This document shows positions 28,145-58,859 of a stretch of 64,000 nt of DNA, piece after piece. The notes beneath the pieces were generated by a model that was not told where the DNA came from, searched no databases, and saw nothing but the letters and a program-made list of their open reading frames with translations. Every line of letters starts with the position of its first letter. Within the stretch, counting starts at the first letter, position 1. Made by a program: the position numbers and the translations under genes. This stretch comes from Metridium senile (lineage: Eukaryota; Cnidaria; Anthozoa; Actiniaria; Metridiidae): the NCBI GenBank assembly GCA_949775045.1, contig OX459101.1, forward strand, positions 14,816,942 through 14,880,941. Reading direction: 5' to 3'.

Positions 28145-28365
28145 GCCTATTTAGATGGTTAGTTCTGATTGGCTATGAACTCTATCCACATATAACCGAA
28201 ATGATGATTGGGTAAATCTTCCCGCCAAACAGCCTCGTTTTCAAGACTTTTTTCGAATAGATCCTTTTGTCGATAAAATTCTTTTCATGACGGATTTGAA
28301 AAAAAAAATTGTGATTACAAAATTTTCTATTTTTTGAAGAAAAGAAAGAAAGAAAAAAAAAACAA

Positions 28366-29970
28366 AGAAATATTTCCCAGAAATTCCCGATTATGGGATC
28401 TTATAGGGATATCAAAAACGATGTTTGACCCAATTTTGGGATTCTTGTGTGAAATATTTCCCAGAAATTCCCAATTATGGGATCTTATAGGGATATCAAA
28501 AACGATGTTTGACCCAATGTTGGGATTCTTGTGTGAAATATTTCCCAGAAATTCCCAATTATGGGATCTTATAGGGATATCAAAAACGATGTTTGACCCA
28601 ATGTTGGGATTTTTGTGTGAAATATTTCCCAGAAATTCCCAATTATGGGATCTTATAGGGATATCAAAAACGATGTTTAACCCAATTTTGGGATTCTTGT
28701 GTGAAATATTTCCCAGAAATTCCCAATTATGGGATCTTATAGGGATATCAAAAACGATGTTTGACCCAATGTTGGGATTTTTGTGTGAAATATTTCCCAG
28801 AAATTCCCAATTATGGGATCTTATAGGGATATCAAAAACGATGTTTGACCCAATGTTGGGATTCTTGTGTGAAATATTTCCCAGAAATTCCCAATTATGG
28901 GATCTTATAGGGATATCAAAAACGATGTTTGACCCAATGTTGGGATTTTTGTGTGAAATATTTCCCAGAAATTCCCAATTATGGGATCTTATATGGATAT
29001 CAAAAACGATGTTTGACCCAATGTTGGGATTTTTGTGTGAAATATTTCCCAGAAATTCCCAATTATGGGATCTTATAGGGATATCAAAAACGATGTTTGA
29101 CCCAATTTTGGTATTCTTTTGTGAAATATTTCCCAGAAATTCCCAATTATGGGATCTTATAGCGATATCAAAAACGATGTTTGACCCAATGTTGGGATTC
29201 TTTTGTGAAATATTTCTCAGAAATTCCCAATTATGGGATCTTATAGGGATATCAAAAACGATGTTTGACCCAATTTTGGGATTCTTGTGTGAAATATCTC
29301 CCAGAAATTCCCAATTATGGGATCTTATAGGGATATCAAAAACGATGTTTGACCCAATGTTGGGATTTTTGTGTGAAATATTTCCCAGAAATTCCCAATT
29401 ATGGGATCTTATAGGGATATCAAAAACGATGTTTGACCCAATGTTGGGATTTTTGTGTGAAATATTTCCCAGAAATTCCCAATTATGGGATCTTATAGGG
29501 ATATCAAAAACGATGTTTGACCCAATTTTGGTATTCTTTTGTGAAATATTTCCCAGAAATTCCCAATTATGGGATCTTATAGCGATATCAAAAACGATGT
29601 TTGACCCAATGTTGGGATTCTTTTGTGAAATATTTCCCAGAAATTCCCAATTATGGGATCTTATAGGGATATCAAAAACGATGTTTGACCCAATTTTGGG
29701 ATTCTTGTGTGAAATATCTCCCAGAAATTCCCAATTATGGGATCTTATAGGGATATCAAAAACGATGTTTGACCCAATTTTGGGATTCCTTTGTGAAATA
29801 TCTCCCAGAAATTCCCAATTATGGGATCTTATAGGGATATCAAAAACGATGTTTGACCCAATTTTGGGATTCCTTTGTGAAATATCTCCCAGAAATTCCC
29901 AATTATGGGATCTTATAGGGATATCAAAAACGATGTTTGACCCAATGTTGGGATTCTTTTGTGAAATACT
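28366..29970. repeat. 84-bp tandem array, about 19 copies
   Basis: Units start GAAATATTTCCCAGAAATTC and contain GGGATATCAAAAACGATG. Since 84 is divisible by three and the unit lacks a stop in one frame, a 603-codon open frame spans the array, encoding a 28-residue repeat. Single-base variants are distributed between copies. I treat it as satellite rather than a protein gene. Confidence 0.93.
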
Positions 29971-31005
29971 GCCAATTTACTCCCAATATTGGGAAATTGT
30001 TGTAAATTGCTTTATTCGTTGTTTTTTTCTCCAAAAAATTCCCAATTTTGTGCCAAAGATATCCCAACTTGGACCCAAAATTGGGAAATATCCCATTATT
30101 TTCCCAATTTTTTCAAAATTGGAAAATCAGATTTTTTTCCTGTGATATATACATAGTATTTTTCAAAAGTGTGACATATATATACAAGTGTGTGTGTGTG
30201 TATGGATATGTCTATTCTATAGGTAATATGACATATATAATGACATAAATATATAAAAAAAATTATAAGAATTTTGTAAAGTAATATATAGAAATAGATA
30301 TAACAACACATGACATCAATTATTTTTGTTTGTGCACACCAAGCAATTTTTTTATTCACAAACAGTTTTATTAACTGATGTTATGCTTTTCATAACATAT
30401 TGAATCATTTTATAAAACGTATTACTTTAGTAGTCAAATCAACACAATAGAAATATAAGATTAATTTAAGAGTATAGTAGTGCATCATAAGCTTAAGTGT
30501 ATTTCACATACATGAATAATGAAAGACCACTATGATTTGGCTTTAATCACCATATATCTGAATTATAATGCTTATCTTTGTGAAGTTTAAAGAAAGTTCC
30601 TTTGAACAGATGGAGCTTATTATAAAACATCTGACATTCTCTGCATTTATCATTTGTTCGTCTTATATGGTGACTAAAAAGAAGATAATATATTTCAGTT
30701 AAAGTTCAAACACAATAGAAAACAGAATAATTAATTAGATAATAATCTTAAATAATCTGAAGTGTACGTATTTTACGGGTTTATTTGTGTACACTTTTAG
30801 AGTAAAGGAGCTTGCTTACCTTTGGCATGGTGATTTCCCAATTCATTAGAGTAGAAAAGACTTAAGTTATGAAGCATTGCAGATGAAAAATTGACTGTAA
30901 CCTCAGACAAATGGTTCAGTGGATAATCTTAATTTGTTTTTAAAAGAAAATCTCATTTGCTTATCTACAAAAATGTATACAAAATACTAAACACAGTGAA
31001 AAATT

Positions 31006-34424: not shown

Positions 34425-35816
34425 CTACCAACTTGCCTCTAGATACCCGCTACCTGAGCTACTCGCATCACCGTCCACACCTGACGAATATGTTGAAGTA
34501 GGTTCGCCTTTGTCAGCCACTAAATGCTGTGGACACGAGGTAGTGTTTTTTCCTATCATAGTTTGAATGTCTTGTAGACGCTTTAAGCTGGGTCTTTCGT
34601 CGAAACCATGTTTTCTTGCCAAAGAAATAGCTGTTTCTATTATTTCTTTGGCTTCGTGATAACGTCCACAGCGAAAAGCTTGATCAGAGTTTGCTACAAG
34701 GCACTGCAGCTGTTCACTCGCTGGGATGTCTTTCCTTACTTTGTTTTCGCTCTCGAGTTCATCGAGGCATTTCTTTGCTTCTTTCAAGTTGTCGTCACTA
34801 ATTGTTCTTTTTCGCCCACCATTTGTGTTTGAATTAAGCAGCCACATTACTTTCTTGAGTTTTGCAAAGTCGCCTTTCTTGACAAAATCCCACTTCTTTG
34901 TTCTGTTAATTTCTTCACAAATTTCAGAGCACCGATCAAGACATGTTCTGATCGTTTGGGTGTTTGAACGGTCGTACTCCAGAAAAATACTACCTTGTTC
35001 GTAGTACACTGACGCCTCGTCGTACAAAAATATTGTGCCCTTCAGTCTCTGTTCTGCTTGAGCCAAACATTCATTGGCACTTCCAAGGAAGTTGCCTTTC
35101 TGGTGACGATAGGCCGAAGCAAGATAACAATACGCTCTCCCCTCGACTAATTGCCTTATTGATTGGTCAATACCTTTCAAATATTCTGGGATTTTCCTTA
35201 AAGTTTCCAATAATATCTCAACTGCTTGAACGATGTTGGATTCTGCAGACAAGTCATAGCACATTTGCTGGGCCTGTTCCAAGGTTAGAAGGGTATCCCA
35301 TACAGGATCAACGCCATGTTCAACACGGAATTCATTCAGTCTATCACAAAATAGGTCGAATTTCCCATCATCCCTCAGTGGATGTAGCACAGCAAGAACC
35401 TTTTCAAAAAATGTGTTGTATAATAAGACTCCCTTTTCGCTCACAGAACTTGTGAAAATTGTTGTTGGCTTTTTGTTAGGTGTCTCCTTTTGCCTAGGCT
35501 TTCGTCTGAGTTTCTTCCGAGATGTACGACTTGATTGACAACCCCTTTTTTGATCGTCTGTTGTTAAATTTAACACTGAATTGTTTCCGACTTGACAGGT
35601 ATCACAGTTCACGTTAATTGTAACATCATTGTGCCATGAATCGTCTCCCGGAATAACCTGAATAATGTCTGATGTTCTTCGCAAACTAGCGTCAACATAA
35701 GCCTTGTTGTCGTTCCCAACTTGTATATATTTCGCTTTAACTTCATAAATTACCTTTCTTTTTTTGTCTGTATTGTTCAGTACTAAAGTCTCTTCAGCCT
35801 TACCACAATTCGCCAT
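34425..35816 (-). CDS. RHIM-like/TPR protein, copy A (463 aa, intronless)
   Basis: No named family is certain. The N-terminus has two short motifs resembling the RHIM amyloid core: IQVGNDN (31-37) and CQVGNNS (74-80). Next comes an acidic IQVIPGDDSW segment, then a basic linker RKKLRRKPRQKETPNKK that could be nuclear-localising. From about 130 onward the protein is alpha-helical with TPR-like repeats, for example FRCGRYHEAKEIIETAISLA near the end. RHIMs in RIPK1, RIPK3, TRIF and ZBP1 drive amyloid assembly in cell-death and NF-kappaB signalling; a scaffold role is inferred. Most residues of the C-terminal part are identical by eye to copy C (51039). Intronless, whereas copy B has two introns. 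A kappaB-like site lies 270 bp upstream. Confidence 0.85.
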   Translation of the reverse strand: MANCGKAEETLVLNNTDKKRKVIYEVKAKYIQVGNDNKAYVDASLRRTSDIIQVIPGDDSWHNDVTINVNCDTCQVGNNSVLNLTTDDQKRGCQSSRTSRKKLRRKPRQKETPNKKPTTIFTSSVSEKGVLLYNTFFEKVLAVLHPLRDDGKFDLFCDRLNEFRVEHGVDPVWDTLLTLEQAQQMCYDLSAESNIVQAVEILLETLRKIPEYLKGIDQSIRQLVEGRAYCYLASAYRHQKGNFLGSANECLAQAEQRLKGTIFLYDEASVYYEQGSIFLEYDRSNTQTIRTCLDRCSEICEEINRTKKWDFVKKGDFAKLKKVMWLLNSNTNGGRKRTISDDNLKEAKKCLDELESENKVRKDIPASEQLQCLVANSDQAFRCGRYHEAKEIIETAISLARKHGFDERPSLKRLQDIQTMIGKNTTSCPQHLVADKGEPTSTYSSGVDGDASSSGSGYLEASW

Positions 35817-36085
35817 GAAGTTGCCTTAACGATCGTGTTATATATTCAGTAAATACTCAGGTATCGAATCTGAGAGTCGAAAATGCTCTTCAAAGCGCAA
35901 AACGAATAAATACTCGATTGCAAATCAAGAAAGTTGTCGGAATTCTTGAGTTGAATAATCCATCTTTAAGATCCATCACTTGAATTCTCTTAAAAATGAA
36001 CAAAACTCAAACAGTCGAAGCGAAGCGAGGCGAAGCGAAGCGAAATGAAGCTCTTTAATTATGCAAACTCGCAGGCAGCAAATTT

Positions 36086-36096
36086 GGGGAATTCCC
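36086..36096. promoter_or_regulatory. NF-kappaB-like site GGGGAATTCCC upstream of copy A
   Basis: Fits the kappaB consensus GGGRNWYYCC. It is 270 bp before the ATG, matching positions in copies B and C. A TATATAAAG on the minus strand (36158-36166) lies further upstream, so the site could sit just downstream of the start of transcription. Confidence 0.55.
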
Positions 36097-36374
36097 GCGC
36101 AGCCTCGCTGTCAAAAAAGATCGTCTGATCGTCACATTGTTTGCTTTTGACTGTCGGCTTTATATAGCACTCATAGAGATAACAGTAAAACGAATAAAGT
36201 GCTTTGGGATTTGGATGAATTCAATTAGCTGCAGTCAAAAATAATTTTAATGAACATTGCATTTGTATATTGTTACATTTGTAAATATCAATGTGAAAAA
36301 TGTCCAAAAATATAGTTAATAGATAATTTATAAAGAAAAAACGAAAAAATACTATAAATGAATTAACTGAAATA

Positions 36375-36570
36375 AATAAATAAACAAACAAACAAACAAA
36401 CAAACAAACAAACAAACAAACAAACAAACAAACAAACAAACAAACAAACAAACAAACAAACAAATAAATCAATGAATGAATGAATGAATGAATAGATGAA
36501 TGAATGAATGAATGAATGAATGAATGAATGAATGAATGAATAAATAAATAAATAAATAAATAAATAGGTA
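36375..36570. repeat. (AAAC)n, (AATG)n, (AAAT)n compound microsatellite
   Basis: Three adjoining tetranucleotide tracts. Open frames over them are artefacts. Confidence 0.95.
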
Positions 36571-37205
36571 AATAATTTTATAAAAAAATGTATGAATATA
36601 TAAATACATAAATACAAAAAAAAAAATAAAAAACACATAAAAAAATAAATTAACTACATATGTAATACCAAACGTTCATAACAAGAAGTGCCCATCTTGA
36701 TAATAAACATATATACGGTGGCCCACAAGGGCAAAACACAACTAAATGTTTGGTTGAAAACACAACAATCTTTCGCAGAACACAGCAATCTTTCGCAGAA
36801 CACAACAATCTTTCCCAGAACACAACAATCTTTCGCAGAACACAACAATCTTTCGCAGAACACAACAATCTTTCGCAGAACACAACAATTTTTCACAGAA
36901 CACAACAATCTTTCACAGAACACAACAATCTTTCGCAGAACACAACAATTTTTCACAGAACACAACAATCTTTCGCAGAACACAACAATCTTTCGCAGAA
37001 CACAACAATCTTTCAATCTTTCACAGAACACAACAATCTTTCACAGAACACAACAATCTTTCGCAGAACACAACAAAATTTCGCAGAACACAACAAAATT
37101 TCGGTGGACTAGTGACTAGTCACTCTACCAGGCTAAGCAGCCTGGCCGGCCTGGGTTGATCGAAGGCACATAACTGAACAAAAATGGCTTCCAACAACTG
37201 AGCTA

Positions 37206-38126
37206 ATGACGGAGATTAAGAAAGCATTATCTCGTATCATTTCTCCAGAGGGTTTAAGTACATTACCATCTTTTTTTTTTGTGGAAAAACATCATGGCAT
37301 CAAAATGTCTCTCAGAACGCTAAAGAACAGGCTAAAGAAATACAACTTTAAGAGAAAATTTCCATCCTTGCTTAAAGTAGCACTTGGACGAAAACGCCCG
37401 GATTTTGAAAAGTCCCAATAAACGAATTTGTATAGGTTAATATTACTCTAATGTGATTGCTTAAGAACTATGTATAAAAAAATAGCTTAAAATTCACCTA
37501 TTGCGGAGAAATAAGGCTTTGAAAACACGCCACTCAAACTCACGGCCAAATGAAATCTGTCCTGCGGTAATTGCGTGACGCGTGACTTATGACGTCAAGT
37601 ACTCCACGACTGATCTTCAAATCATGTGATTGTCTTGAAATAGAGAAAAAAAGTTCACCAAATCTTCTGACATTTCATAAACGTTCTTGATTATAATAAT
37701 TCCGGAGCATATCCTTTGAAGCCACGAATGTTGTTGTGAAACCATGGAGTAAATGACGTCATTCGTCACTCGACCCCATTCCTCTTGGTGTAATATTACT
37801 GATTACAAAAATACAATAGCAAATCGCGATTTTATCGGTCTTCGCGTACGAATTTCTACAAAAATACTTTAGCAAGGCATTTTTGGGTTAGTATTTGGTC
37901 TTAAACAAGCAAAAAAGTTCGTTTATTGGGACTTTTCAAAATCCGGGCGTTTTCGTCCAAGTGCTCCTTTAATGGAGGGGAAGATGATTTATTAAATTCC
38001 ATCTCAGGTGATGAGATAAAGTCTATGAGGGATAACTTGACATATGAGGAAGAGAAAAGCTGCTATCAAGAATACTTTGAATATGTTGTACATGTATTTG
38101 ATTTTTTTTTATACATACATAGCTAA
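37206..38126 (+). pseudogene. Integrase-type N-terminal HTH fragment, split by a MITE
   Basis: The first part (37206-37375) reads MTEIKKALSRIISPEG... then EKHHGIKMSLRTLKNRLKKY. This resembles the HTH that precedes integrase-type DDE domains in some eukaryotic transposons (HGI-x-S-x-RTLKxRLK). A MITE with TTAA duplications interrupts it at 37376-37968. The frame resumes at 37969 (NGGEDDLLNSISGDEI) and ends near 38126. No DDE core was found. The mirrored copy has one base fewer in a poly-T run and is frameshifted. Confidence 0.45.
37376..37968. mobile_element. MITE with TTAA target duplication
   Basis: AGTAGCACTTGGACGAAAAC at the left is mirrored by GTTTTCGTCCAAGTGCTCCT at the right, about 50 bp of pairing, with TTAA on both sides (37372-37375, 37969-37972). 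TTAA targets suggest the piggyBac or Kolobok group. The mirrored copy is 40838-41431. Confidence 0.85.
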
Positions 38127-38762
38127 CTCAACATGAAACAAAGTGTACATATAGATTACAAACACTATACATATGAAACAAAATGAAATTGTAATTATGA
38201 AGTGGTTGTAACTATGTATTGTTACATGTAGGCAGTTTATATATTAAACTATGTTGATTTCATTTCATATAAATTTAGTGTTTGTGCTCTATGAAAAGAT
38301 CAAGTATACATTGTTTTTGAAACATGATAGGAATTTGCAACATTATTTTTTACTGAATGTGCCACTTATTTATTTACAAACAAAACGAAAACACAGTGAA
38401 ATGCTCACACTTTACAGCTAAAACAATACTTATAAATTCCTGCTGCACATAACAGTGCATAAATTAATCTTTGCTAGTGTTTTGTCATACTCTTTAATAA
38501 TACCATAACCACAAACGTTCATTATTATTTGGGTTATGTTTCATAGTACTGCAGGAGCAATTTAACACAAACAGAAACAATTTGAATTCATGGTATAATG
38601 GTGATATATATCTTACACGTTTAAACAGTAGTAAAGGAACACCACTCCTTAAGATAACGATAGCTTTAAAATATTCTTACACGGCACCTTTTATAATTAT
38701 GTGGCCATCAAACATCACACACAAAACAAATGTGTAAAAAAAATTTTTTCACAGCCCTCCAT

Positions 38763-39041
38763 TTAGAACACTAAAGGTATCAACTGATTACTTTTGATTG
38801 ACAGCAGTACAAACTGCCTCGTTCTTGGTGGCATATAATAACTGGAGACTGATTCTCCATCTTCTGTTTTTTTAGTAACGGCCTTTCGTCGTGAAGTGTT
38901 TTCGTCTTCCTCCGACTTCTTTGCTTTAATTCGCTCGAAATTTTCCAGTGAAGTTGAACCTGTAGATTTTACTGCTATACCACATTTGGAACAAAATTTA
39001 CAACTGTTTTGAAGCCAAAGTTCACATTTCTCACAAAACAT
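38763..39041 (-). CDS. Transposon zinc-ribbon protein, copy 1
   Basis: A 92-residue open frame begins MFCEKCELW with C3/C6 and C17/C20 in CxxC pairs (a C14 lies beside the second), a zinc-ribbon pattern. A Lys/Ser/Glu-rich tail follows. It is a complete frame inside transposon copy 1, next to the right-hand 20-bp array, and is identical to 39765-40043. Probably a DNA-binding accessory of the element; expression unknown. Confidence 0.5.
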   Translation of the reverse strand: MFCEKCELWLQNSCKFCSKCGIAVKSTGSTSLENFERIKAKKSEEDENTSRRKAVTKKTEDGESVSSYYMPPRTRQFVLLSIKSNQLIPLVF

Positions 39042-39764
39042 GGCGGGCAGCGTAGAGAGAGAAGGAAAGAAAATTTACCCAAGATCCTTCTTGAGCGCTT
39101 TTTCTTGGTCCGCGCTAGGTACCATTCCTTCGAAAGATTGTTGTGTTCTGCGAAAGATTGTTGTGTTCTGCGAAAGATTGTTGTGTTCTGTGATAGATTG
39201 TTGTGTTCTGCGAAAGATTGTTGTGTTCTGCGAAAGATTGTTGTGTTCTGTGAAAGATTGTTGTGTTCTGCGAAAGATTGTTGTGTTCTGTGAAAGATTG
39301 TTGTGTTCTGCGAAAGATTGTTGTGTTCTGTGAAAGATTGGTGTGTTCTGCGAAAGATTGTTGTGTTCTGTGAAAGATTGTTGTGTTTTCGACCAAACAT
39401 TTAGTTGTGTTTTGCCCTTGTGGGCCACCGTAGGGCTTACTGTATCTTATTCTTAATAATTTCTGATAAGGTATATGTACGGTGGCCCACAAGGGCAAAA
39501 CACAACAATCTTTCGCAGAACACAACAATCTTTCGCAGAACACAACAATCTATCACAGAACACAACAATCTTTCGCAGAACACAACAATCTTTCGCAGAA
39601 CACAACAATCTATCACAGAACACAACAATCTTTCGCAGAACACAACAATCTTTCGCAGAACACAACAATCTTTCGAAGGAATGGTACCTAGCGCGGACCA
39701 AGAAAAAGCGCTCAAGAAGGATCTTGGGTAAATTTTCTTTCCTTCTCTCTCTACGCTGCCCGCC

Positions 39765-40043
39765 ATGTTTTGTGAGAAATGTGAACTTTGGCTTCAAAAC
39801 AGTTGTAAATTTTGTTCCAAATGTGGTATAGCAGTAAAATCTACAGGTTCAACTTCACTGGAAAATTTCGAGCGAATTAAAGCAAAGAAGTCGGAGGAAG
39901 ACGAAAACACTTCACGACGAAAGGCCGTTACTAAAAAAACAGAAGATGGAGAATCAGTCTCCAGTTATTATATGCCACCAAGAACGAGGCAGTTTGTACT
40001 GCTGTCAATCAAAAGTAATCAGTTGATACCTTTAGTGTTCTAA
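39765..40043 (+). CDS. Transposon zinc-ribbon protein, copy 2
   Basis: Identical in translation to 38763-39041, on the opposite strand, as part of the palindrome. The two copies are divergently transcribed, with start codons about 720 bp apart across the palindrome centre. Confidence 0.5.
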   Translation: MFCEKCELWLQNSCKFCSKCGIAVKSTGSTSLENFERIKAKKSEEDENTSRRKAVTKKTEDGESVSSYYMPPRTRQFVLLSIKSNQLIPLVF

Positions 40044-40837
40044 ATGGAGGGCTGTGAAAAAATTTTTTTTACACATTTGTTTTGTGTGTGATGTTTGATG
40101 GCCACATAATTATAAAAGGTGCCGTGTAAGAATATTTTAAAGCTATCGTTATCTTAAGGAGTGGTGTTCCTTTACTACTGTTTAAACGTGTAAGATATAT
40201 ATCACCATTATACCATGAATTCAAATTGTTTCTGTTTGTGTTAAATTGCTCCTGCAGTACTATGAAACATAACCCAAATAATAATGAACGTTTGTGGTTA
40301 TGGTATTATTAAAGAGTATGACAAAACACTAGCAAAGATTAATTTATGCACTGTTATGTGCAGCAGGAATTTATAAGTATTGTTTTAGCTGTAAAGTGTG
40401 AGCATTTCACTGTGTTTTCGTTTTGTTTGTAAATAAATAAGTGGCACATTCAGTAAAAAATAATGTTGCAAATTCCTATCATGTTTCAAAAACAATGTAT
40501 ACTTGATCTTTTCATAGAGCACAAACACTAAATTTATATGAAATGAAATCAACATAGTTTAATATATAAACTGCCTACATGTAACAATACATAGTTACAA
40601 CCACTTCATAATTACAATTTCATTTTGTTTCATATGTATAGTGTTTGTAATCTATATGTACACTTTGTTTCATGTTGAGTTAGCTATGTATGTATAAAAA
40701 AAAATCAAATACATGTACAACATATTCAAAGTATTCTTGATAGCAGCTTTTCTCTTCCTCATATGTCAAGTTATCCCTCATAGACTTTATCTCATCACCT
40801 GAGATGGAATTTAATAAATCATCTTCCCCTCCATTAA

Positions 40838-41431
40838 AGGAGCACTTGGACGAAAACGCCCGGATTTTGAAAAGTCCCAATAAACGAACTTTTTTGCTTG
40901 TTTAAGACCAAATACTAACCCAAAAATGCCTTGCTAAAGTATTTTTGTAGAAATTCGTACGCGAAGACCGATAAAATCGCGATTTGCTATTGTATTTTTG
41001 TAATCAGTAATATTACACCAAGAGGAATGGGGTCGAGTGACGAATGACGTCATTTACTCCATGGTTTCACAACAACATTCGTGGCTTCAAAGGATATGCT
41101 CCGGAATTATTATAATCAAGAACGTTTATGAAATGTCAGAAGATTTGGTGAACTTTTTTTCTCTATTTCAAGACAATCACATGATTTGAAGATCAGTCGT
41201 GGAGTACTTGACGTCATAAGTCACGCGTCACGCAATTACCGCAGGACAGATTTCATTTGGCCGTGAGTTTGAGTGGCGTGTTTTCAAAGCCTTATTTCTC
41301 CGCAATAGGTGAATTTTAAGCTATTTTTTTTATACATAGTTCTTAAGCAATCACATTAGAGTAATATTAACCTATACAAATTCGTTTATTGGGACTTTTC
41401 AAAATTCGGGCGTTTTCGTCCAAGTGCTACT
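40838..41431. mobile_element. Mirrored copy of the TTAA MITE
   Basis: Same ends and TTAA flanks (40834-40837, 41432-41435) as 37376-37968. Being present in both arms, it was inserted before the arms were duplicated. Confidence 0.85.
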
Positions 41432-42368
41432 TTAAGCAAGGATGGAAATTTTCTCTTAAAGTTGTATTTCTTTAGCCTGTTCTTTAGCGTTCTGAGAGAC
41501 ATTTTGATGCCATGATGTTTTTCCACAAAAAAAAAGATGGTAATGTACTTAAACCTCTGGAGAAATGATACGAGATAATGCTTTCTTAATCTCCGTCATT
41601 AGCTCAGTTGTTGGAAGCCATTTTTGTTCAGTTATGTGCCTTCGATCAACCCAGGCCGGCCAGGCTGCTTAGCCTGGTAGAGTGACTAGTCACTAGTCCA
41701 CCGAAATTTTGTTGTGTTCTGCGAAATTTTGTTGTGTTCTGCGAAAGATTGTTGTGTTCTGTGAAAGATTGTTGTGTTCTGTGAAAGATTGAAAGATTGT
41801 TGTGTTCTGCGAAAGATTGTTGTGTTCTTCGAAAGATTGTTGTGTTCTGCGAAAGATTGTTGTGTTCTGTGAAAGATTGTTGTGTTCTGCGAAAGATTGT
41901 TGTGTTCTGTGAAAGATTGTTGTGTTCTGCGAAAGATTGTCTAACATTTGTATATATGTAAATTCGAAATATCCTAATGACAGCACAATTTAATTATAAA
42001 GCTGATCTCAGTTTAATTTAATGAGAATAATTCCATTCTGTTTTATGTGATATTTATGTTTAAAAATCCTTATTACAATGTACAACCGAATGATATATGT
42101 AAACAAATCCTTTCGTTATCTATTGTATTTAAACATATGAAACTTGACACTAGAAGACTAGATTATTCTGTCTCGGCTTATTTGCTTCATCGTAAATTTT
42201 CTTGATCAATTCGTACAGCTTGATCTTCCAAGGAAAAACTTTTTTCTTTTAAAGAGCTAATATCCTATAACTAACAGCTATAACTCTAATTAAAATATTT
42301 TATCGAAGAAATTCATCATATGGAAGTTTAAGGCGTATTATTTTGCATATGACGTAGTTAAGAAGTCG

Positions 42369-42379
42369 GGGATTCCCCG
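42369..42379. promoter_or_regulatory. NF-kappaB-like site GGGGATTCCCC upstream of copy B
   Basis: Perfect kappaB palindrome 282 bp before the ATG of copy B, in a block also found at 18790-19150. Confidence 0.6.
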
Positions 42380-42650
42380 AAACAGATCTCATTTACATAC
42401 CATAATAAACATTCGAATTCTAGTCTGAAGGAACACCACGAAATTTAGTTCGTTCTTTCAGACGTTCAAATTTGGCGAAAATTCGATCGATCACTCCAGT
42501 TAATATTTCAGTCAAGTTTGGAAGACATATCTGGTCGAAAATAATCGAGAATCAGTCACAAACTACGAGCCCAGCGTCGCTGGTGCTTGTGACGCAGTTT
42601 AAATTCAGGTCGCCATTTAATTTTCGCGGAAAAATTTCGATTCGTGAAAG

Positions 42651-45600
42651 ATGCCTGGCATTAAACCTGAAAACGATCAATCTCTTTTAAGAAGGAAAGG
42701 TGAATATGAAGATGTTCCATCACCGGTCCATTCTAGGCGAGAAGAAAAGGAATTCAAACACAATGCAGTTGATGTAAACGGCGAAGGCTCTGTGGAACTC
42801 TCAACTTCCAAGATCAGTGATGCACAATCTGAAAGGACCGAGCTTCCGATGAGCAAAACGGATGGAGGGAATATGGTTTTCCGAATTAATATACTAGAAT
42901 CACTAGTTACACAGATTGGAAAGAACAACAGTGTGATATATACTTCTAACCAGAGAAACGAAGTAAACGACGTACAATCAGACCAGGCAAGCACCTCGTC
43001 CTCAGAAACAACGATAAAGCGTCACAGAAAAAGGTCAAAGAAGCGACGTAATAAACAAAGTCCTGTGACTTCAAAAGTGCTGCAAAAATTGGGACCTGCC
43101 GACCCTTCTCCCTCCGTTAAAGCCTTCATGATAATGTCAGATAAAATCATGATGGATTTACAAAAACTTCGCGACAATGGCAATTGGCAATCGTTTGAAG
43201 CTAAGACGAAAGAGTTGACTAAGGAATACAGCGGTAATGCGGATGCACAAATCGTAATTTTATTGGAGAAAAGCATGGCTGCGTGTTATCAAAATATGTT
43301 AACAGATTCAGAAGATATGTTAATGCAGGCCACCAAAGACGCTAAGGACTCTGAGAATTCCTCCTATCTGATAGGTAAATATCATCCTTCATGTATGTTT
43401 TTACATTTTTTAAAAGTATTACATGTAACATTTTTATTAGCTTATTTCATTAATGTTAATCAGTTAATCAGTTAATCAATTTATTAATGTTAATCAGTTG
43501 AACTTTGTCCTATAGATATCTTGTTTGTTTTGTTTTATTTATATTTTAATATTTAATTGTATTTAATTTTGATTTTATTTATCTCTTATCTTTTTTTGAT
43601 TGTCATCAAATAGATTTTACTCCATTTTACTCCATTTCACACAGGGAACCCGACTTTTGGTTGCTTTGCTTAAAATAATCGCTTTTGCATATACGCGTAG
43701 CTTTTTCTGGATTCCTGTGGTGCCTAGGAGACCTTTGTAAACAGTTTACGTAATCTATGAGATCCGACGTCCTCTGTGTGTGACACCCCTCCGCTCCGCT
43801 CCTTTCTCCCTAGGGCCGAGCTACGCAGGCTAGTGGTAATGCACTTGCATATCTCTTTAGTGTGTTTTAAGAGAGTGCGTTACTAAATTCGAATTTGTTT
43901 ACCACCGGATCTGATTACACGCCAACGACTGTCCAACTTTATTACGTAAACTGTTTAACAAAGGTCACGATATGTAGAGTATGGTGCCCAGTTTCGTGAC
44001 ATTACCAGTATCGTGAAACAAACAAACAAAAAATCGTTTTTAGCGACGGCTATTTGGTATTTCAAAAAAAACAAAGTCTACAGAGAAAACACTGAACATT
44101 CAGCTTCAGTATGCATGTTTCGACGGGCTTTTGCAAGCACGGATTTTTCGAAGAGAAGCAATTGTTGACAGAGTAGCGGAGGTTTCCTGGCTTAAATGTA
44201 TGACTTTTACTGCGCAGTAAACTGACATGGGCTCGAAAAAGAGGGATTTCCATCGTATATTCTCAAAGAACAAAGACAATATTTATACTGACGATAGCTA
44301 GAGAGTGTAACTTCATTTTACCACCCTTGAATGTTCAGCAATTTTGATATTTGCAAAAATATACATAATATTTAGTTCGTTTTAGATTAGGTGCCCAGTT
44401 TCGTGACACGCAAATGTCAGTGATTAAAAAAAGCCCGAATATACCGACAAGTATTGGCTTTAAAAATCATGGCTGGAAATTGTTTTGCAATCAAGTTTTG
44501 CTTTTGCTATGGAACACTACGGCAGATAAAGTCGCCTTTGCAGATCGTTTCAATGCAAATTAAGTTGATAAGTAGCAGGACTTTGAATATTTTCATATTC
44601 CAAAATTCTCAAAAAATAAAATAAGAAACAATCCAAATGTTAGCGCAAAATATAGTTTAAGGTAAGAAAATATGTTTTGGATTTGTTTTATCGAATTTTG
44701 TTGTGAACTACTTTGAAAACAATGCATTTTTACAACGTGTCACGAAACTGGGCCACCTGTCAGTAAACTGGGCACCTAAGTTGCCGTCGAAATATTCCTT
44801 TTATTTTATCAAATTGATAGATTCGAAGAAAATATCTAAATCATTATTTTACCTGATATATTTGCCTTTGAATGACAAAATTTCATAGACTTATTTTTCT
44901 CCGTAGAGAAAATATTGTATTTACAAACTGAAGTATCACGAAACTGGGCAACATACTGTAGGGCTTACCTCCTAGGCACCACAGGAATACCGAAAAAGCT
45001 ACGCATATATGCAAATGCAATTTTTTTAAGCAAAGCAACCAAGAGCCGGGTTCCCTGTGCATTTCACTCCATTTCACACCATTTCAATCCATTTCAATCC
45101 ATTTCAATCCATTTTAATCCACTTCACTCCATTTCACTCGATTTCACTCGATTTCACTCGATTTCACTCGATTTCACGTCATTTCTATCCATTTCACTCT
45201 ATTGCACTCCATTTTTTTCTATTTATTTCCTTTCTATACATATTATTCCCTTTCAATTCATTTCATTCCTGTATTTATAGGACGTATCCACTTATACTGG
45301 TCTTGTGTGTATCGTAAACAGCCCAGCCAAACAGGAAGTGCTGATGATCATACTGGAATCGCCGAACAAATGAATGACGGTCAGATCTTAACCTTAGATT
45401 CCACCTTCATTGCGTATGAACGAGCAAGCGTATACATGGAATTTAACGCAAAGTGTCTTACCACAAACATCAACATCAAAAATGAAGCCAAAGTTAACTT
45501 TAAGAAATGTATCGACGGATCTATGATACTAGAAAAAGACTGCTCCCATCCACGCTATGTCAAGAAAAACCAATTTGCTCTTATAAAGATTGCAATGTTG

Positions 45601-46124
45601 TGTCTAGATTGCCGTACGGCTGCAGGTCAGTATAGTGCAATAGCATGTCGAGATGACATGACCGCGTCGCTTATTTGAGGAAATTCGGTAACCGTATTGC
45701 TATGTTTTTTTAAACAATACCAATGTCTTTCACACCAGGTCGCAAGAAAGAAGTGAGTGCTGCAGATATCCGTGAAGCCAGTGATTCTCTTGAAACTCTA
45801 CGCAACAACTACTGGGACGGTATAGCTGAAGGGGAGAAAATCCAGTACTATCTCGCAGAGGCCGACTTAAACTGGCGCCAGAAACGCTACCCTGAAGCTG
45901 AAAAATCAGCATTAATGGCTCACAACATGGCAATAGAATTTGGCTTTGACACCGAGATCGAACCAGCAAAGGATCGTCTGGATGAGATCAAAGCAAAGCT
46001 CGATCCTCAACCAGTTGGCGAGTTTGTATCAGGGGCTGGTGCTATTGGTATGCTATCTGGTAGTGAGTTTGGCGACCTGTCAAGCTCTTGCGAGTCAGAT
46101 TGTTCGTGCTCCCCTTTACTTTAA
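42651..46124 (+). CDS. RHIM-like/TPR protein, copy B (484 aa, three exons)
   Basis: Exons 42651-43374, 45281-45625 and 45739-46124 join in phase 1 at both junctions (ATAG/GTAAAT...TTATAG/GA; GCAG/GTCAGT...CCAG/GT). The N-terminus carries one RHIM-like motif, TQIGKNNSV (87-95), followed by a basic run KRHRKRSKKRRNKQ and the helical TPR-like part, for example WRQKRYPEAEKSALMAHNMA. It aligns with copies A and C along its length (GRIHLYWSCVYRKQ against GRAYCYLASAYRHQ; FIAYERASVYMEF against LYDEASVYYEQ) but is much more diverged. Intron 1 hosts a 1.4-kb element. The start is the first ATG after in-frame stops. Function unknown; a signalling scaffold is inferred from the motif. Confidence 0.82.
43640..45059. 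mobile_element. 1.4-kb element with CACAGGGAACCC ends in intron 1 of copy B
   Basis: About 95 bp of inverted terminal sequence starts CACAGGGAACCCGACTTTTG and continues to GTGGTGCCTAGGAG. CATTTCA flanks both ends (43633-43639, 45060-45066), a possible 7-bp duplication, though the site is inside a CATTTCAC-rich repeat. A second element (43978-44957) is nested in it. Confidence 0.75.
43978..44957. mobile_element. Nested element with TGCCCAGTTTCGTGA ends, copy 1
   Basis: AGTATGGTGCCCAGTTTCGT at left, complement at right. Additional internal copies of GTCACGAAACTGGGC occur at about 44392 and 44738. A relative lies at 59666-60655. Confidence 0.75.
45060..45235. repeat. CCATTTCACT-type minisatellite
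   Basis: Tandem, roughly 10-bp units (CATTTCACTC, CATTTCAATC) before exon 2 of copy B. Confidence 0.85.
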
Positions 46125-48420
46125 ATATTTTTCTTTATATACATCTTCTTTTTGAATAACTTTTCAAACAAATTCATAAATATCAGTTAAACCTGGCTTT
46201 GTACAGTCAAACTTACCAACGCCCTCGTTATTTCATTTTTCGCGCTGATAGGTTCTCTGTACTTTTCGGCCATGCATTAATTACACATTTAAATTTAATT
46301 CATTTTTTATTGTTCATTCTTTTGTCATTTCATAATATAAATATTTTTTTTTACTTTTTTATTTTTATTTTTAGTATTATTATTTTTATACAACTGGAAG
46401 TATGTTATTTTGATAAAAGTATGAAATTATATTTATCCTAACAAATCCAGTGATTGATTACCTATAGTCCAATCAATTAAGTACATACACAGGAGACTGT
46501 CACGTTTCGAAAGGGACTATGAGTAAATGTCTTGGAATTTAATGACGTAGAGTTTTCGAACGTATCCATTTGCTACTGTCCACGGAAACACATCAACGGC
46601 AGTTTCAAAACCATGCATATTGGTGAGCACTTATCCTTTTAAAACGAGCGTTTTTTTAGTTATCCGGTTGACAAAAGGCCTAAATGCACAGACAAGAATA
46701 CACCTATTTCAATAAACGTTGAGCATCTGTAAATGGTTGATCTCAGACCGATAGGAATTGTGGGAGTTAATTAGATTCCAAATGAATTGTTTTAATAACG
46801 CTTGAATCGTATTGAATTACAGATAACACTTTTCCTTAAATCGTAAATTACAAATACCATCAAGAAAATGGCAAAAAGCACATAATTTTGATGTTTTGTG
46901 AATGAATTTTGACTTGAATTAAGAGCGTATAGTATAGTAATTTTAGCAGTAAAATTATGCCATTTTCAGCCGTTAAAATAAAAGTCTTGATGAAGAAAAT
47001 GACTAAAACTGTGGAGAATTTCGATGTGTTTTGAATACATTTTCACTTGCCGTCACACATCATTGAGCGCGCGCTCGGTATTTTCACTTTCAATTATCTG
47101 TCATTTTTTTTCAAAATAAAACGATTGAAATGTTATTTTTCTTTCAAAATATGGCAAAGTTTGACCTAATAGTTGGTTTATACTCGAAGACTCGGCCTTG
47201 TGGGCTATTGACTCGTAGACCATTCGGGCTGCGGGTCTAATTGTTAGATATATATCAATAATTATTGTGCATTTTCAATTTAATGTGATCCCACAATTCA
47301 TATCGGTCTTAGATTGACCATTTTTAGATGTTCGCTAATAGGACATTTGCATTATACCGTCATAAACTACCAGTGCCAAATTCAACTCGTGCCAATGGCC
47401 TATTGGAATAAGTGCATAAAATATGCGTTTATAAAATCGAGACTAAACGCCTTCGCAAAGATATTATATTTGTATATATTAAACTGTGGTAGCTAAACTT
47501 GAATTTGTATATATATAGTATAAAGGATTAACGATAATTAATATATTATTGTAATATAGGTTGAATCTATAAACCTAATCTATGAAAACTCTCTCGTTTT
47601 GTAAAGTTTATCCGTCACTTGACCAAGTATATATTGTGGATGCAAGTTTTATCTTACAGCGCAAAACCCAAAAGTATATGACCAGCGATAATTTATTCAT
47701 ATTTTCTCTACATCTTTTCAATCAACTCCTCTAGATTAAATGTCAACATTTTTCACTGTGAATCACAAGACAAGAATGATGTCAATCTTCAGATGAATTT
47801 TGAGGATTTTAAAATAGCTAGAATGAAGTCCATTTGAATCCAAAGCAGCTACAGACAAACATGTCAAAAGAATGTGAATAAATTATCTGCGGTCACACTT
47901 TTGTCAATGTCACATATGTCACGCAAAACTTTTATTTAGTATAAATACACAAGAGATTATAGAAAATCGCGAGCGGTGATTGGTCGAGAAATTCATAATA
48001 TTTCTCAATAATCACCTACAGCGTTTCAAGCGCTTTTTAAAATAAGAAATTGGTATTTGTACTTTTTGAAATAATCATGTTTGTATTTCTACTAAAACAA
48101 TTATCCACCTCAGGCTCAGTGAATATCGCCGAATGATAACCTTGACTCCGTCTCGGTTAATAATTGTTGAACATAAGTAATATAAGCTCCAAATAAACCA
48201 CCTGACTGTCTAGAGTTTAGCTGTATAGTATTTAAACAGTCATTGGATGTGATTTCACTTTCATGATCTCAAACAATAGGATATGTAAGTTGTTGTGAAA
48301 CATGATGTATTTCAGCTTTAATATTTTAATAAACGTCATTTTTAACACGTTTCTATTTTTGCACATTTCATTGTCTTTATATATTTATTTTATTTTATAT
48401 GTAATTAAAGTTAGTTATGG

Positions 48421-48530
48421 GCTAGCCTGAGAAAACAGACGTTGCTTTGCTCCTTGTCCCCCCGCGAAACTTTTTAGTTCCGTGGGGGGACGAGGAGCGA
48501 AACAACGTCTGTTTTCTCAGGCTAGTTATG
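48421..48530. repeat. Hairpin element, arms about 45 bp
   Basis: TAGCCTGAGAAAACAGACGT at left is mirrored by ACGTCTGTTTTCTCAGGCTA at right around a GGGGGG/CCCCCC stem. A second, ACAGTGGTAC...GTACCACTGT, lies at 48615-48707. Confidence 0.8.
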
Positions 48531-49164
48531 GGCTAATTGTTTTTTTTAATATTTTATTATTTATTGTTGTATTATATATGTTTGTTTATTTTATTTATTT
48601 ATTTATTCAGTTTAGCACAGTGGTACTTTTATTCAGCAGCCAACCTCTATTAAGCGGTCACTTTTGAAAGTACCGATGGTGACCGCTTAATAGAGGTACC
48701 ACTGTATTCATTTATTCATCTTTTGTTTGTTTATTTATTTTTATCATCTTTTTATTATTTTATTTATTTATTAATTAATTAATTAATTTATTTGTTTACT
48801 TATTTATTTATTTTTGTATTTTTATGTATTTATTCCAGTTTTTTTGCAGTTTTTTTCGTTTTTTCTTTATATATTTTATTGATAATATACTATTGTAATG
48901 TATTATGAATCTACAAAGCTAATCTGTGAAGACTGGATATTTCTGCTAGTAACCAGTGTTATCGTGTCTTTTGAGAACATTCTGGATGCACTTTGCTTCT
49001 TCTTTTATGTTGTAGCCACTACACTGATGAACTGCTACCACATGGCTAAAAAAATAGAAACAATGTCACGTATGTCACGCAATACATTTATTTTGTATAT
49101 GATTATATATAGAAAATCGAAAGAAAAAGTAAAGTAAAGTTTATATCCTCCATGGAACGGCTAG

Positions 49165-49425
49165 CCGATGGGAGGAGCTGGTCCGGCCCAAACGTCCAGC
49201 CAGCTATGAAATTATTTCTTCTTCATCATCATTTTCCTGATCTGGCCTCTGTCAAGGCCAGTCCATTTTTCTAATTTTAGCCAGCGATCGTGTGAGTATT
49301 TACGCTGGTTCTTCGCGAAGAGTATCTGCTTCTGTGGCATGAAATTTTCCATGCGGACCACATGACCGAGCCAACGCATCGTTTGTTTCCGGATGAAAAC
49401 GTCCAGAAAAGATGTGCTTGTTCGA
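49165..49425 (-). pseudogene. Fragment of a non-LTR retrotransposon C-terminus
   Basis: Reading the minus strand gives MRWLGHVVRMENF followed by PQKQILF and a Trp/Lys-rich tail ending in a stop. RWLGHVxRM with a following KQ is typical of the end of many LINE reverse-transcriptase ORFs. Only this scrap remains. Confidence 0.6.
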
Positions 49426-49754
49426 GAAATTCACACTATTCCTTGAATAGTTCTAAAACTAAAAGTGTCATTCAAAACAACCTGACTGTCTAGAGATGGG
49501 CTGTATAGTATGAAATTAGTCGCTGAATATCATTTCACTCTCAAGATCAGAAAAAAAATCAACTTATCAATTAATATAAAAAAATAGAATATGTATTTTT
49601 CAAAATAGAATATGAAACATTATGCATTGCAGCTATTGTTAATTCTGCGTTTGCGTATTTATTTTTGCACTCGATCTTCAGTTGACGTCATTTCTTTATT
49701 TATCTGATTTTATATGTAATTTAATATCATGTTTTTATCATGTTTTTTTTCTTT

Positions 49755-50030
49755 ATACAGCCGATCTCGAAAAGGTTGTCCACCTGAGAAGACATATATA
49801 CTAAAAGAAATATCACGTGACTCATTATAGATACACTTTCTGCGCGTGTAGACAGTCAGGTGCGTTTGAAAGTAATATGGCGGTGAATTCAAACAAGCAG
49901 TATCTTCCCTCGCTAGAAGTACCTGACTTTCTACACGCGTGGAAAGTGAATCTAAAATGAGTCACGTGATATTTCTTTTAGTATATATGTCTTTTCAGGT
50001 GGACAACCTTTTCGAGATCGGCTGTATGTT
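49755..50030. mobile_element. Foldback element, arms about 110 bp
   Basis: ACAGCCGATCTCGAAAAGGT is mirrored by ACCTTTTCGAGATCGGCTGT, and pairing continues through ATATCACGTGACTCAT. The loop holds TAATATGGCGGTGAATTC. Confidence 0.85.
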
Positions 50031-50034
50031 TCTT

Positions 50035-50222
50035 AATATAAATATTATTATAAGAACGATTCGACGTTTCGACACATCGAGCGTCATTTTCAAGAACGAA
50101 ATGAGAATAAAGTATAAACGAGTTTATACTTTATTTTCATTTCATTTTCATTTCGTTCTTGAAAATGACGCTCGATGCGTCGAAACGTCGAATCGCTCTT
50201 ATAATAATATTTATATTGAAAA
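50035..50222. repeat. Hairpin, arms about 75 bp
   Basis: TTCGACGTTTCGACACATCG is mirrored by CGATGCGTCGAAACGTCGAA, extending outward to AATATAAATATTATTATAAG and its complement. It directly follows the previous foldback. Confidence 0.85.
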
Positions 50223-50761
50223 CATTAACGAAAACTACAATTATATATGTTTTTTGTTGTATTTATTTATATGTCTTATTTTATATATCTCTTTATTTAC
50301 TTATTTTTTCATCTCTTTCATTTATTTGTTTATTTGTTTATATATTCATTTATTTATTTGTTTGTTTGTTCATTTATGTATATATGTATACCTTTATTTA
50401 TTTGCTTACTTTTTTATTTACTTTTTCTATTTAATTGTCTATTTACTTATTTATTTACTTATGTATTTTTATTTACCTATATTTTTTGTTTTATTTCAAT
50501 TTATTCCTTTCTTTCTTTTTTTCGTTCGTTTCTTGCATATTTTATTTTTTTATAACGCGCTATTTTTTGGATAAAGCGCCATATAAAATATTTTTGCGGT
50601 TACAATAACAATTATTTTGAACTATATACGTAGCCAAGTTAAATATTAATACATGAAAACCGAAAGCACTTATTTCATTGTTATCTCTATTAGTTCTATT
50701 TCGAGCCGGATGTCATAACAAAAAAACATGTGACGATCATGCGATCTCTGTTGATATCGAG

Positions 50762-50772
50762 GGGGAATCCCC
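50762..50772. promoter_or_regulatory. NF-kappaB-like site GGGGAATCCCC upstream of copy C
   Basis: Reverse complement of the GGGGATTCCCC site of copy B, 277 bp before the ATG of copy C. Confidence 0.6.
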
Positions 50773-51038
50773 GACAGCGTCATATTTTAAAGGAGTCGTT
50801 TCTCTTCGCTTCGAACGCTTGAGTATTGTTAATTTTCGAAGACAATTCCTTTTATTCTGCTTCTTTCAAGTGATGAATCTTAAAGATGGATTTTTCAACT
50901 CAAGAATTCCGACATCTCCCTTGATTTGGAGACGATTATTCATACGTTTTGGGCTTCAAAGAAAGGAAGACACTGGTCAGACTCGAATTCGAAACTCGAG
51001 CATTTCCTGAGTTATAGCAACATTTCTGTAGAAATTTC

Positions 51039-52502
51039 ATGGCGAACCGTGGTAAGATAACAAGGGTTTTATTACCGAGAAATAAAGACAAAGGAAGAAA
51101 GGTTATTTGTGAAGTAAACTCGAAAAATACACAAGTTGGGAATGACAGCAAGGTTTATGTTGACACTAGTTCCCGAAGAGCTATCGACAGCCTTCCGACT
51201 ATCGAGACATTAGATCTCGATGACTTTCCGAATGATAGCGAACGTCCACGAAATATCTCCGTAACATCAGATTTTATTCAGGTGATTCCGGGAGATGATT
51301 CATGGCCGGATTATGTTGAAACTAACGTGAACTTTCGCGGGGGAAATGGCACTTGCCAGGTTGGAAACAATTCAGATGTACATTTAAAAGCAGGTGGTCA
51401 AAATAGAGGAAAACATTCAAGCCGTAGATCTCGAGGTAAAATCAGACGAAAGCCTCAGAAAAAAGAGACACCTAACAAAAAGCCAACAACAGATTTCACA
51501 AGTTCTGTGAGCGAAGAGGCAGTCTCATTATACAACACGTTCTTTGAAAAGGTTCTTGCCGTGCTCCATCCACTGAGGGATGATGGCAAATGGGACCTAT
51601 TTTGTGATAGACTGAATGAATTCCGTGTTGAACATGGCGGTGACCCTGTATGGGATATTCTTCTAAACCTGGAACAGGCCCAGCAAATGTGCTATGACTT
51701 GTCTGCAGAATACAACATCGTTCAAGCAGTTGAGATATTATGCGAAACATTAAGGAAAATCCCAGAATGTTTGAAAGGTGTTGACGAATCAATAAGGCAA
51801 TTAGTCGAGGGAAGAGCGTATTGTTATCTCGCGTCGACCTATCGTCACCAGAAAGGCAACTTCCTTGGAAGTGCAGATAAATGTTTGGCTCGAGCAGAAC
51901 AGAGACTTAAGGGCACAATATTTTTGTACGACGAGGCGTCAGTGTACTACGAAAAAGCAAGCATTCTTCTGGAGTACGACCGGTCAAACACCCAAACGAT
52001 CAGAACATGTCTTGATCGGTGCTCTGAAATTTGTGATGAAATCAACATTGCAAAGAAGTGGGATTTTGTGCTGAAAGGCCACTTTGCAAAACTCAAGAAA
52101 GTGATGTGGCTACTTAATTCAAACACAAATGGTGGACGAAAAAGAACGATTAGTGACGATAACTTGAAAGAAGCAAAAAAATGCCTCGATGAACTCGAAA
52201 GTGAAAACAAAGTACGGAAAGACATCCCAGCGAGTGAAAAGCTGCAGTGCCTTGTAGCCAATTCTGATCAAGCTTTTCGCTGTGGACGTTATCACGAAGC
52301 CAAAGAAATAATAGAAACGGCTATTTCTTTGGCAAAAACACATGGTTTTGACGAAAGTCCTGGCTTGAAGCGTAAACAAGATATTGAAACTATGATAGGA
52401 AAAAACGCTACCTCATGTCCACAGCATTTAGTGGTTGACCAAGAAGAAATGTTAACCATTTCAACATGTTCTTCAGGCAAGGACGGTGATGCTAGTAGCT
52501 GA
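51039..52502 (+). CDS. RHIM-like/TPR protein, copy C (487 aa, intronless)
   Basis: Two RHIM-like motifs: TQVGNDSKV (31-39) and CQVGNNSDV (106-114). Between them this copy has about 24 more residues than copy A (around ETLDLDDFPNDSERPRN). A basic segment (SRRSRGKIRRKPQKKETPNKK) and the helical TPR-like region follow; that region is nearly the same as in copy A. Upstream sequence is also shared with copy A (AGATGGATTTTTCAACTCAA and TCAAGAATTCCGACA), so the duplication included the promoter. The coding sequence ends at TGA, and a 131-bp satellite begins at once. Function inferred only from motif resemblance. Confidence 0.85.
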   Translation: MANRGKITRVLLPRNKDKGRKVICEVNSKNTQVGNDSKVYVDTSSRRAIDSLPTIETLDLDDFPNDSERPRNISVTSDFIQVIPGDDSWPDYVETNVNFRGGNGTCQVGNNSDVHLKAGGQNRGKHSSRRSRGKIRRKPQKKETPNKKPTTDFTSSVSEEAVSLYNTFFEKVLAVLHPLRDDGKWDLFCDRLNEFRVEHGGDPVWDILLNLEQAQQMCYDLSAEYNIVQAVEILCETLRKIPECLKGVDESIRQLVEGRAYCYLASTYRHQKGNFLGSADKCLARAEQRLKGTIFLYDEASVYYEKASILLEYDRSNTQTIRTCLDRCSEICDEINIAKKWDFVLKGHFAKLKKVMWLLNSNTNGGRKRTISDDNLKEAKKCLDELESENKVRKDIPASEKLQCLVANSDQAFRCGRYHEAKEIIETAISLAKTHGFDESPGLKRKQDIETMIGKNATSCPQHLVVDQEEMLTISTCSSGKDGDASS

Positions 52503-58500: not shown

Positions 58501-58859
58501 CGTCTGAAAAACAATTATGAAAATGTGTCTTAAGCTTCAACCATAAAATATTTCATGATTGAAAAAAAATTATATAGTTAATGACGATTAAGATATCAAT
58601 CTACAACAGCTTTTGTATTTTTTTAGTACAAAAGAGTCTGAAATATAAATGGAAACTAGCGAGTATAGACCAAAGCCAAAACTTAGCAAAATTGATGACG
58701 TCATTTTCCCGCCAAAAATCGTAACACTTGTAAAAGTGAAAAGAAGACATTTTTTCTTTTGGTGTGTACTCTTCACATTTAAAACTTCAAGTTGATCAGA
58801 CTTGAGTATAAAAATTATTCAAAGTTATCTCCCCCCCTCAAAAATCTAATGGTCCGTAC

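Follow-up and report, generated by a model that had tools for sequence, protein, structure and literature searches.

Three genes of the sea anemone Metridium senile, here called A, B and C, were located within the window (the whole 64,000-nucleotide stretch that was analysed, C7:14816942-14880941 of the 389-Mb genome; C-numbers are contigs, and P and L numbers are protein and locus labels). Their products share one architecture: a Q-[IV]-G motif or motifs near the N-terminus, a basic linker, and a TPR-like helical domain. The motif resembles the RHIM, an amyloid-forming tag of animal cell-death signalling with the core tetrad [IV]-Q-[IVL]-G. Judging from sequence, we consider it somewhat probable that these proteins are kinase-less TPR adaptors of RHIM type that belong to an amyloid-signalling system of the anemone and possibly act downstream of RNA sensors, and the family may represent an unrecognised group of immune adaptors.

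A first-pass annotation of this DNA had claimed three such genes, with two motifs each in A and C and one in B. All three are present, A and C as open frames and B as a spliced gene model (three exons and two introns, with GT/AG junctions), and the motifs were found in the numbers claimed:

34425..35816, minus strand: gene A coding sequence, one open frame, intronless, 463 amino acids
35706..35726, minus strand: gene A motif 1, IQVGNDN (residues 31-37), by motif reading and column conservation
35577..35597, minus strand: gene A motif 2, CQVGNNS (residues 74-80), by motif reading and column conservation
34539..35441, minus strand: gene A TPR-like helical domain, approximate, from alignment to C
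42651..43374, plus strand: gene B exon 1 (N-terminus, motif, linker and first TPR helices), GT donor at 43375
42909..42929, plus strand: gene B motif, TQIGKNN (residues 87-93); TQVGNNN in homologue P0008 and MQIGNDN in P0009
45281..45625, plus strand: gene B exon 2 (TPR), AG acceptor and GT donor, by tblastn with P0008
45739..46124, plus strand: gene B exon 3 (TPR and C-terminal tail), AG acceptor, stop at 46122-46124
51039..52502, plus strand: gene C coding sequence, one open frame, intronless, 487 amino acids, homologues P0001-P0005
51129..51149, plus strand: gene C motif 1, TQVGNDS (residues 31-37), Q32 and G34 invariant, also recovered by pattern search
51354..51374, plus strand: gene C motif 2, CQVGNNS (residues 106-112), Q107 and G109 invariant
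51513..52412, plus strand: gene C TPR-like domain, 13 helices (residues 159-458), by AlphaFold2 and Foldseek

Lack of the motif in orthologues had been named beforehand as a refuting result; instead, the motif proved clearly conserved. Twelve family proteins had a readable N-terminus (A, B, C, exon 1 of a further gene, D, P0001-P0005, P0008, P0009 and L026); the partial P0007 and the fragments P0010 and L008 lack the motif region and were left out of the count. Q-[IV]-G was kept in 11 of the 12, the exception being L026. Among seven A/C-class proteins (C plus six that share 43-82% identity with it), only seven of the 129 columns covering residues 2-130 were invariant (E25, Q32, G34, Q81, T105, Q107 and G109), and four of these seven were the Q and G of both motifs (Q32, G34, Q107 and G109). 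The N-termini of the B class do not align overall, and the motif still recurs: it reads ITQVGNNNHMMI in a B-class protein of Actinia tenebrosa and FMQIGNDNVLNF in P0009. In gene D it reads FTQIGRSSSVSL.

This pattern bears directly on whether the resemblance to RHIM is merely chance in a fast-evolving, functionless N-terminus. Such an explanation would fit the E-values obtained for RHIM, all of which are 0.0068 or weaker, and the ratio of non-synonymous to synonymous substitution rates (dN/dS) between A and C, which is 0.65 over the N-terminus. The invariance of Q and G at both motifs in those seven proteins speaks against it, as does recurrence of the motif in the B class at roughly 26% identity to the A/C class. 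Motif conservation, the B class included, already disfavours chance strongly, and we regard it as very improbable.

The first position of the core had been described as Thr or Cys in most motifs, and hence as an imperfect match. It is true that the majority of copies do not carry V or I there; motif 1 of A, however, is IQVG, which places the canonical first residue within the window, and V or I was found in 6 of the 14 motif copies of the A/C class (otherwise T, C or A), with Q and G present in 14 of 14. The imperfection weighs less on account of these copies, and because TQIG and CQIG are natural in RIPK3, the former in lamprey and the latter in some fish (PMC12119088). The same source gives the RHIM core tetrad as V/I-Q-V/I-G and describes human RIPK3 with swapped tetrads, in which all those tested supported ZBP1-dependent cell death, while TQIG in human RIPK3 gave no NF-kB activation (PMC12119088).

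A profile built from 15 motif copies and compared with 177,635 PDB sequences placed three RIPK3 RHIM sequences on top (E 0.098-0.14), with 17 residues in register, and RIPK3 still ranked first once P0008 and P0009 were added (E 0.18-0.26). The Pfam RHIM family (PF12721, curated cut-off 20 bits) matched the motif peptides of P0008 (E 0.0068, 16.4 bits) and P0003 (E 0.028, 14.4 bits) and was the sole Pfam family that either peptide matched; it also matched the full P0003 (E 0.15) and P0008 (E 0.92), both below the cut-off. When 15 motif peptides were scanned singly, one matched RHIM (E 0.019) and one the Curlin repeat (E 0.033). Finally, ungapped comparison with the RIPK3 RHIM put the best 17-residue match on a motif in all ten N-termini scored (gene D and L026 were left unscored). 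In seven of the ten, the observed score was equalled by at most 5 of 3000 residue shuffles (A 3, B 2, P0001 0, P0002 0, P0003 1, P0004 5 and P0009 0); the counts for C, P0005 and P0008 were 179, 73 and 44. Identification of the motif as a RHIM is thus supported by these sequence comparisons, though not significant alone. The RHIM relationship anticipated by the first-pass annotation was borne out by rank (RIPK3 best in the PDB, RHIM the only Pfam family for two peptides) and not by significance or cut-off.

Likeness to RIPK3 also helps to weigh a second alternative, namely a short linear motif through which a non-amyloid partner is bound. A handful of conserved residues within a region that diverges and is probably disordered would fit this explanation equally well. 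A likeness that stays in register over 17 residues, upstream strand included, exceeds what a linear motif would need, and we judge this alternative distinctly unlikely.

Several results weigh against a RHIM identity. The RIPK3 match of the motif profile (E ~0.1) is not significant, and a control profile of the reversed motif reached E-values from 0.024, better than the 0.098 of the real motif, with matches to other proteins, mostly designed repeat proteins. The E-values of the motif profile alone therefore prove nothing; since the profile searches give rank only and the reversed control did better, RHIM as a statistically significant match is rejected. Full-length C and a profile of the whole family each returned five PDB sequences, no RHIM among them. 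The Pfam cut-off was reached by no family sequence, the best scoring 16.4 bits. Pfam RHIM was absent from six of eight motif peptides, including those of B and both motifs of A; it matched none of the five window pieces, one of the eight members of set A1, and none of P0009, P0005 and P0004; and a scan of the genome with the same family did not return the window motifs. The 17-residue match was weak for C, P0005 and P0008, and L026 carries VQCGRNRLKF in the place of the motif, that is, VQCG and not Q-[IV]-G. On balance the family probably works like a RHIM adaptor, yet it falls outside formal membership of the Pfam RHIM family.

The C-terminal half had been described as TPR-like, and this description held. 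TPR_12 exceeded its Pfam cut-off in P0008 (30.7 vs 30.1 bits), and TPR families were detected below threshold in A, C, P0007, P0010 and L026; no TPR family was found in the Pfam scans of P0009, P0005 and three pieces of B. TPR profile evidence is thus firm for one homologue, P0008. An AlphaFold2 model of C contained 13 helices over residues 159-458, with a predicted local distance difference test score (pLDDT) mostly between 80 and 95, with dips, and P0008 was modelled as a confident helical repeat. Foldseek placed both models among TPR proteins, including LGN, KLC1 and MalT; the best E-value was 2.1e-3 for C (none below 0.001) and 2.0e-4 for P0008 (11 below 0.001). TPR folds of LGN/Pins, kinesin light chain and MalT were among the best matches, at 8-19% identity among the 50 matches listed per model. 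None of these three is known to carry a RHIM.

The same models raise a further alternative: an ordinary folded, beta-rich binding domain with Q-[IV]-G in conserved turns, on a plain TPR scaffold, the likeness to RHIM having arisen by convergence. The N-terminus of C was modelled as ten short strands (block mean pLDDT 47-75 over residues 1-120), with the motifs in short strands of middling confidence, so that a folded beta domain is possible there, a further point against RHIM. Three strand-QV units run along the N-terminus of the A/C class, and the middle one, FIQVIPGDD, has no Gly straight after QV; in addition, SdrG, a beta protein, stood close behind RIPK3 in the ranking by motif profile (E 0.21 vs 0.098). 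The motif of P0008, however, lies alone in a long region predicted to be disordered (pLDDT <50, no secondary structure), yet Q-[IV]-G is kept in the B class, and the A/C class, whose N-termini differ at most columns, keeps the Q and G of the motif constant. We consider a folded beta domain rather unlikely.

Under the RHIM-type adaptor reading, the N-terminus would consist of one unit (B class) or two units (A/C class), each a strand, a turn, [IVTCAM]-Q-[IV]-G, a turn and a strand. The C-terminal TPR superhelix would bind a partner, either an upstream sensor or a regulator, and the resulting clustering would allow a cross-beta (amyloid) filament to form as the Q-[IV]-G units stack with one another or with RHIM-type motifs of other anemone proteins. 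The filament would then recruit downstream partners and lead to immune or cell-death signalling. Amyloid assembly by the family, its partners and its role in immunity or cell death are all putative. That these proteins lack kinases, as first annotated, fits the Pfam scans of A, B, C and their homologues, which contained no kinase domain; the same scans contained no NB-ARC or NACHT domain.

In having one or two strand-turn-xQ[IV]G-turn-strand units per protein, in register with RIPK3 over 17 residues, the anemone family is like vertebrate RIPK1, RIPK3, ZBP1 and TRIF, and the motif of P0008 is modelled outside the folded domain, as in vertebrate RHIM proteins. Unlike these, the family gave no match to a kinase, death, TIR or Z-alpha domain in the Pfam scans; its motif is N-terminal, often begins with Thr or Cys and scores below the Pfam RHIM cut-off, and its partner domain is a TPR. 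The fungal NLR PNT1, whose effector is HELLP, is described as carrying an N-terminal RHIM-related PP motif and C-terminal TPRs (PMC7889193, PMC7885112), so that both elements occur in one protein as they do here. It is the nearest architectural parallel and a point in favour of the RHIM-type adaptor reading, although the anemone family, unlike PNT1, showed neither NB-ARC nor NACHT in the Pfam scans. Bacterial BASS3, compared by description only, is likewise a RHIM-related motif class outside kinases (PMC7889193, PMC12261475); unlike the anemone family, it is described in bacterial NLR/effector gene pairs. RHIMs and related motifs have been described in vertebrates and the viruses of vertebrates, in flies, in fungi (PP motifs) and in bacteria (BASS3) (PMC7889193). 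A 2025 study found homologues of RIPK1 in lancelets, in zebra mussel and in several further spiralians, but not in cnidarians (PMC12119088). Among the matches listed from the open-licence PMC literature, no description of RHIM-type TPR proteins in cnidarians was found. If the motif is RHIM-type, the anemone would provide a non-bilaterian animal for testing the origin of amyloid immune signalling and its need for kinases.

Other RHIM-like motif exons were sought across the genome. A degenerate DNA pattern based on the motif found 11 places, as compared with 7 in a backward control: motif 1 of gene C, four places on C11, one on C3, four on C13 and one on C1, where a stop directly follows the motif. 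A stricter, canonical pattern found 7 places as compared with 1 in the backward control, namely the same five C11 and C3 exons plus one place on C2 and one on C6, which were judged to be chance (frames of 54 and 14 residues). The four C13 places, within C13:12579460-12613635, are near-identical, reading VQVGNDSR[FL] in short frames. The five exon-like places on C11 and C3 carry a canonical [IMV]QVGDNNx[MI] (IQVGDNNTM, MQVGDNNSM, MQVGDNNTM, MQVGDNNTI and VQVGDNNIM), closer to RHIM than the window motifs, and their presence in the same genome also favours the RHIM-type adaptor reading:

C11, 4399725 and 4447872, minus strand: motif exons (L047 and L046/L031)
C11, 4613925 and 4773592, plus strand: motif exons (L038/L039 and L041/L042)
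C3, 2202983, plus strand: motif exon (L043/L044), 84 nucleotides, phase 1-1, encoding QHVQVGDNNIMNIS

Three of the C11 exons (87 nucleotides) and the C3 exon (84 nucleotides) are bounded by AG and GT and have symmetric phase 1-1; in the fourth C11 copy a single frame contains both motif and tail, the AG/GT bounds being established for the other four exons only. On C11, a low-complexity tail exon comes next after the motif exon. Exons of an SF1 helicase lie upstream on the same strand in three of three C11 copies examined, and no helicase exon was found in the ~1.5 kb examined for the fourth. AAA_11 and AAA_12 were above the Pfam cut-off in both C11 copies scanned, and ZNFX1 was the best PDB match of the one helicase frame searched (8.7e-17, vs 3.4e-5 for the next). 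Phases do not match between the last helicase exon found (end in phase 0) and the motif exon (start in phase 1), so that at least one further exon must lie between them; the helicase exons and the C11 motif exon may nonetheless belong to one gene. ZNFX1 is a proposed double-stranded RNA sensor in vertebrates (PMC11959080). The C3 exon lies ~1.7 kb downstream of a frame resembling HEPN_DZIP3 (E 2.2e-4, below the Pfam cut-off).

These exons could be read as part of a RHIM-type amyloid network in the anemone that operates without a canonical RIPK1 (no search for RIP kinases was made in this genome): ZNFX1-type helicases and a HEPN-DZIP3-like protein would carry the RHIM on a shuffled phase 1-1 exon, and the TPR proteins of the window would be adaptors that they recruit or seed. 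A profile of the five exons ranked RIPK3 first in the PDB (E 0.18), and a search confined to 13 loci with a C11 exon peptide recovered the C3 exon (38% identity, E 0.006); of the nine identities in an ungapped comparison of the C3 and C11 exons, six are the QVGDNN core. The reading is weakened, however, by three points, the first two of which count against RHIM as well: one C11 exon alone matched no RHIM in the PDB, Pfam RHIM matched one of the three exon-bearing frames scanned (that on C3, E 0.22), and the likeness between the C3 and C11 exons is partly built in, as one pattern found both. We consider such a network unlikely. If it does exist, the sensing of nucleic acids through RHIMs would be older than the ZBP1/TRIF-RIPK pathway or parallel to it.

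Scanning the genome with Pfam RHIM gave four matches, none above the cut-off and all of the strength that chance would give. One (L012) has no RHIM-like core, a second (L013, VTIGDHNSM) is missing the Gln, and a third (L015) has a canonical-looking VQLGLYNHM in a 55-residue frame without sign of a gene. The fourth (L014, C3:17790068-17790094, minus strand) reads VQFGHNNHM in a 79-residue frame (16.3 bits, E 5.4) and could be chance.

The family proved larger than the three genes first annotated. A homologue search recovered five A/C-class proteins (P0001-P0005, 41-53% identity) and four of the B class (P0007-P0010; P0006 is exon 1 of B itself), the named ones coming from the sea anemones Exaiptasia (Exaiptasia diaphana, Actiniaria), Actinia (Actinia tenebrosa) and Actinostola; the A/B/C family is best read as anthozoan and kinase-less. 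Besides A, B and C, the same genome contains gene D, a distant paralogue on C1 (L026) and, in L008, a decayed fragment of an N-terminus. Gene D (C7, L011 2105-5648) lies ~97 kb downstream; its exon 1 keeps the motif, and tblastn alignments of B and D break at matching places. Its exon 2 has one in-frame TAG, so D is probably a pseudogene. L026 (C1:43405588-43406418, minus strand) is TPR-like, in a 588-residue frame (E 4.6e-12). A weak similarity was seen between the middle regions of L026 and P0009, and many family members, among A, B, C and homologues, end in a conserved tail resembling GD[AV]SS-x-ESD.

As proteins, A and C are 82% identical and B and C 26%. Their DNA remains similar beyond the coding sequence: upstream of the start codon the likeness reaches ~36190 on the A side for A and C (76% over a 332-nucleotide stretch that includes the start, and 76% over 91 nucleotides further up), and for this reason A and C look like a DNA-level duplicate pair. 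The absence of B's introns from both suggests that the pair goes back to an older retrocopy. Between A and C, dN/dS was 0.24 over the TPR part, which is under purifying selection.

Two similar frames, at 57193-58536 of the window and at 6665-7978 of L008, the latter beside the decayed A/C fragment, mark a duplicated segment; both look like a sulfotransferase, which we presume them to be. Between A and B, at 36865-41940, lies a near-perfect palindrome with 1836-nucleotide arms that are 100% complementary, 183 nucleotides between them and further outer arms; it may be a recent inverted duplication, a foldback element or an assembly artefact. Elsewhere in the window, frames at 2298-12228 on the minus strand resemble kinase, Fn3, kringle and frizzled domains and presumably represent a ROR-like receptor tyrosine kinase gene, and a long in-frame minisatellite, open on both strands, occupies 28277-30145.

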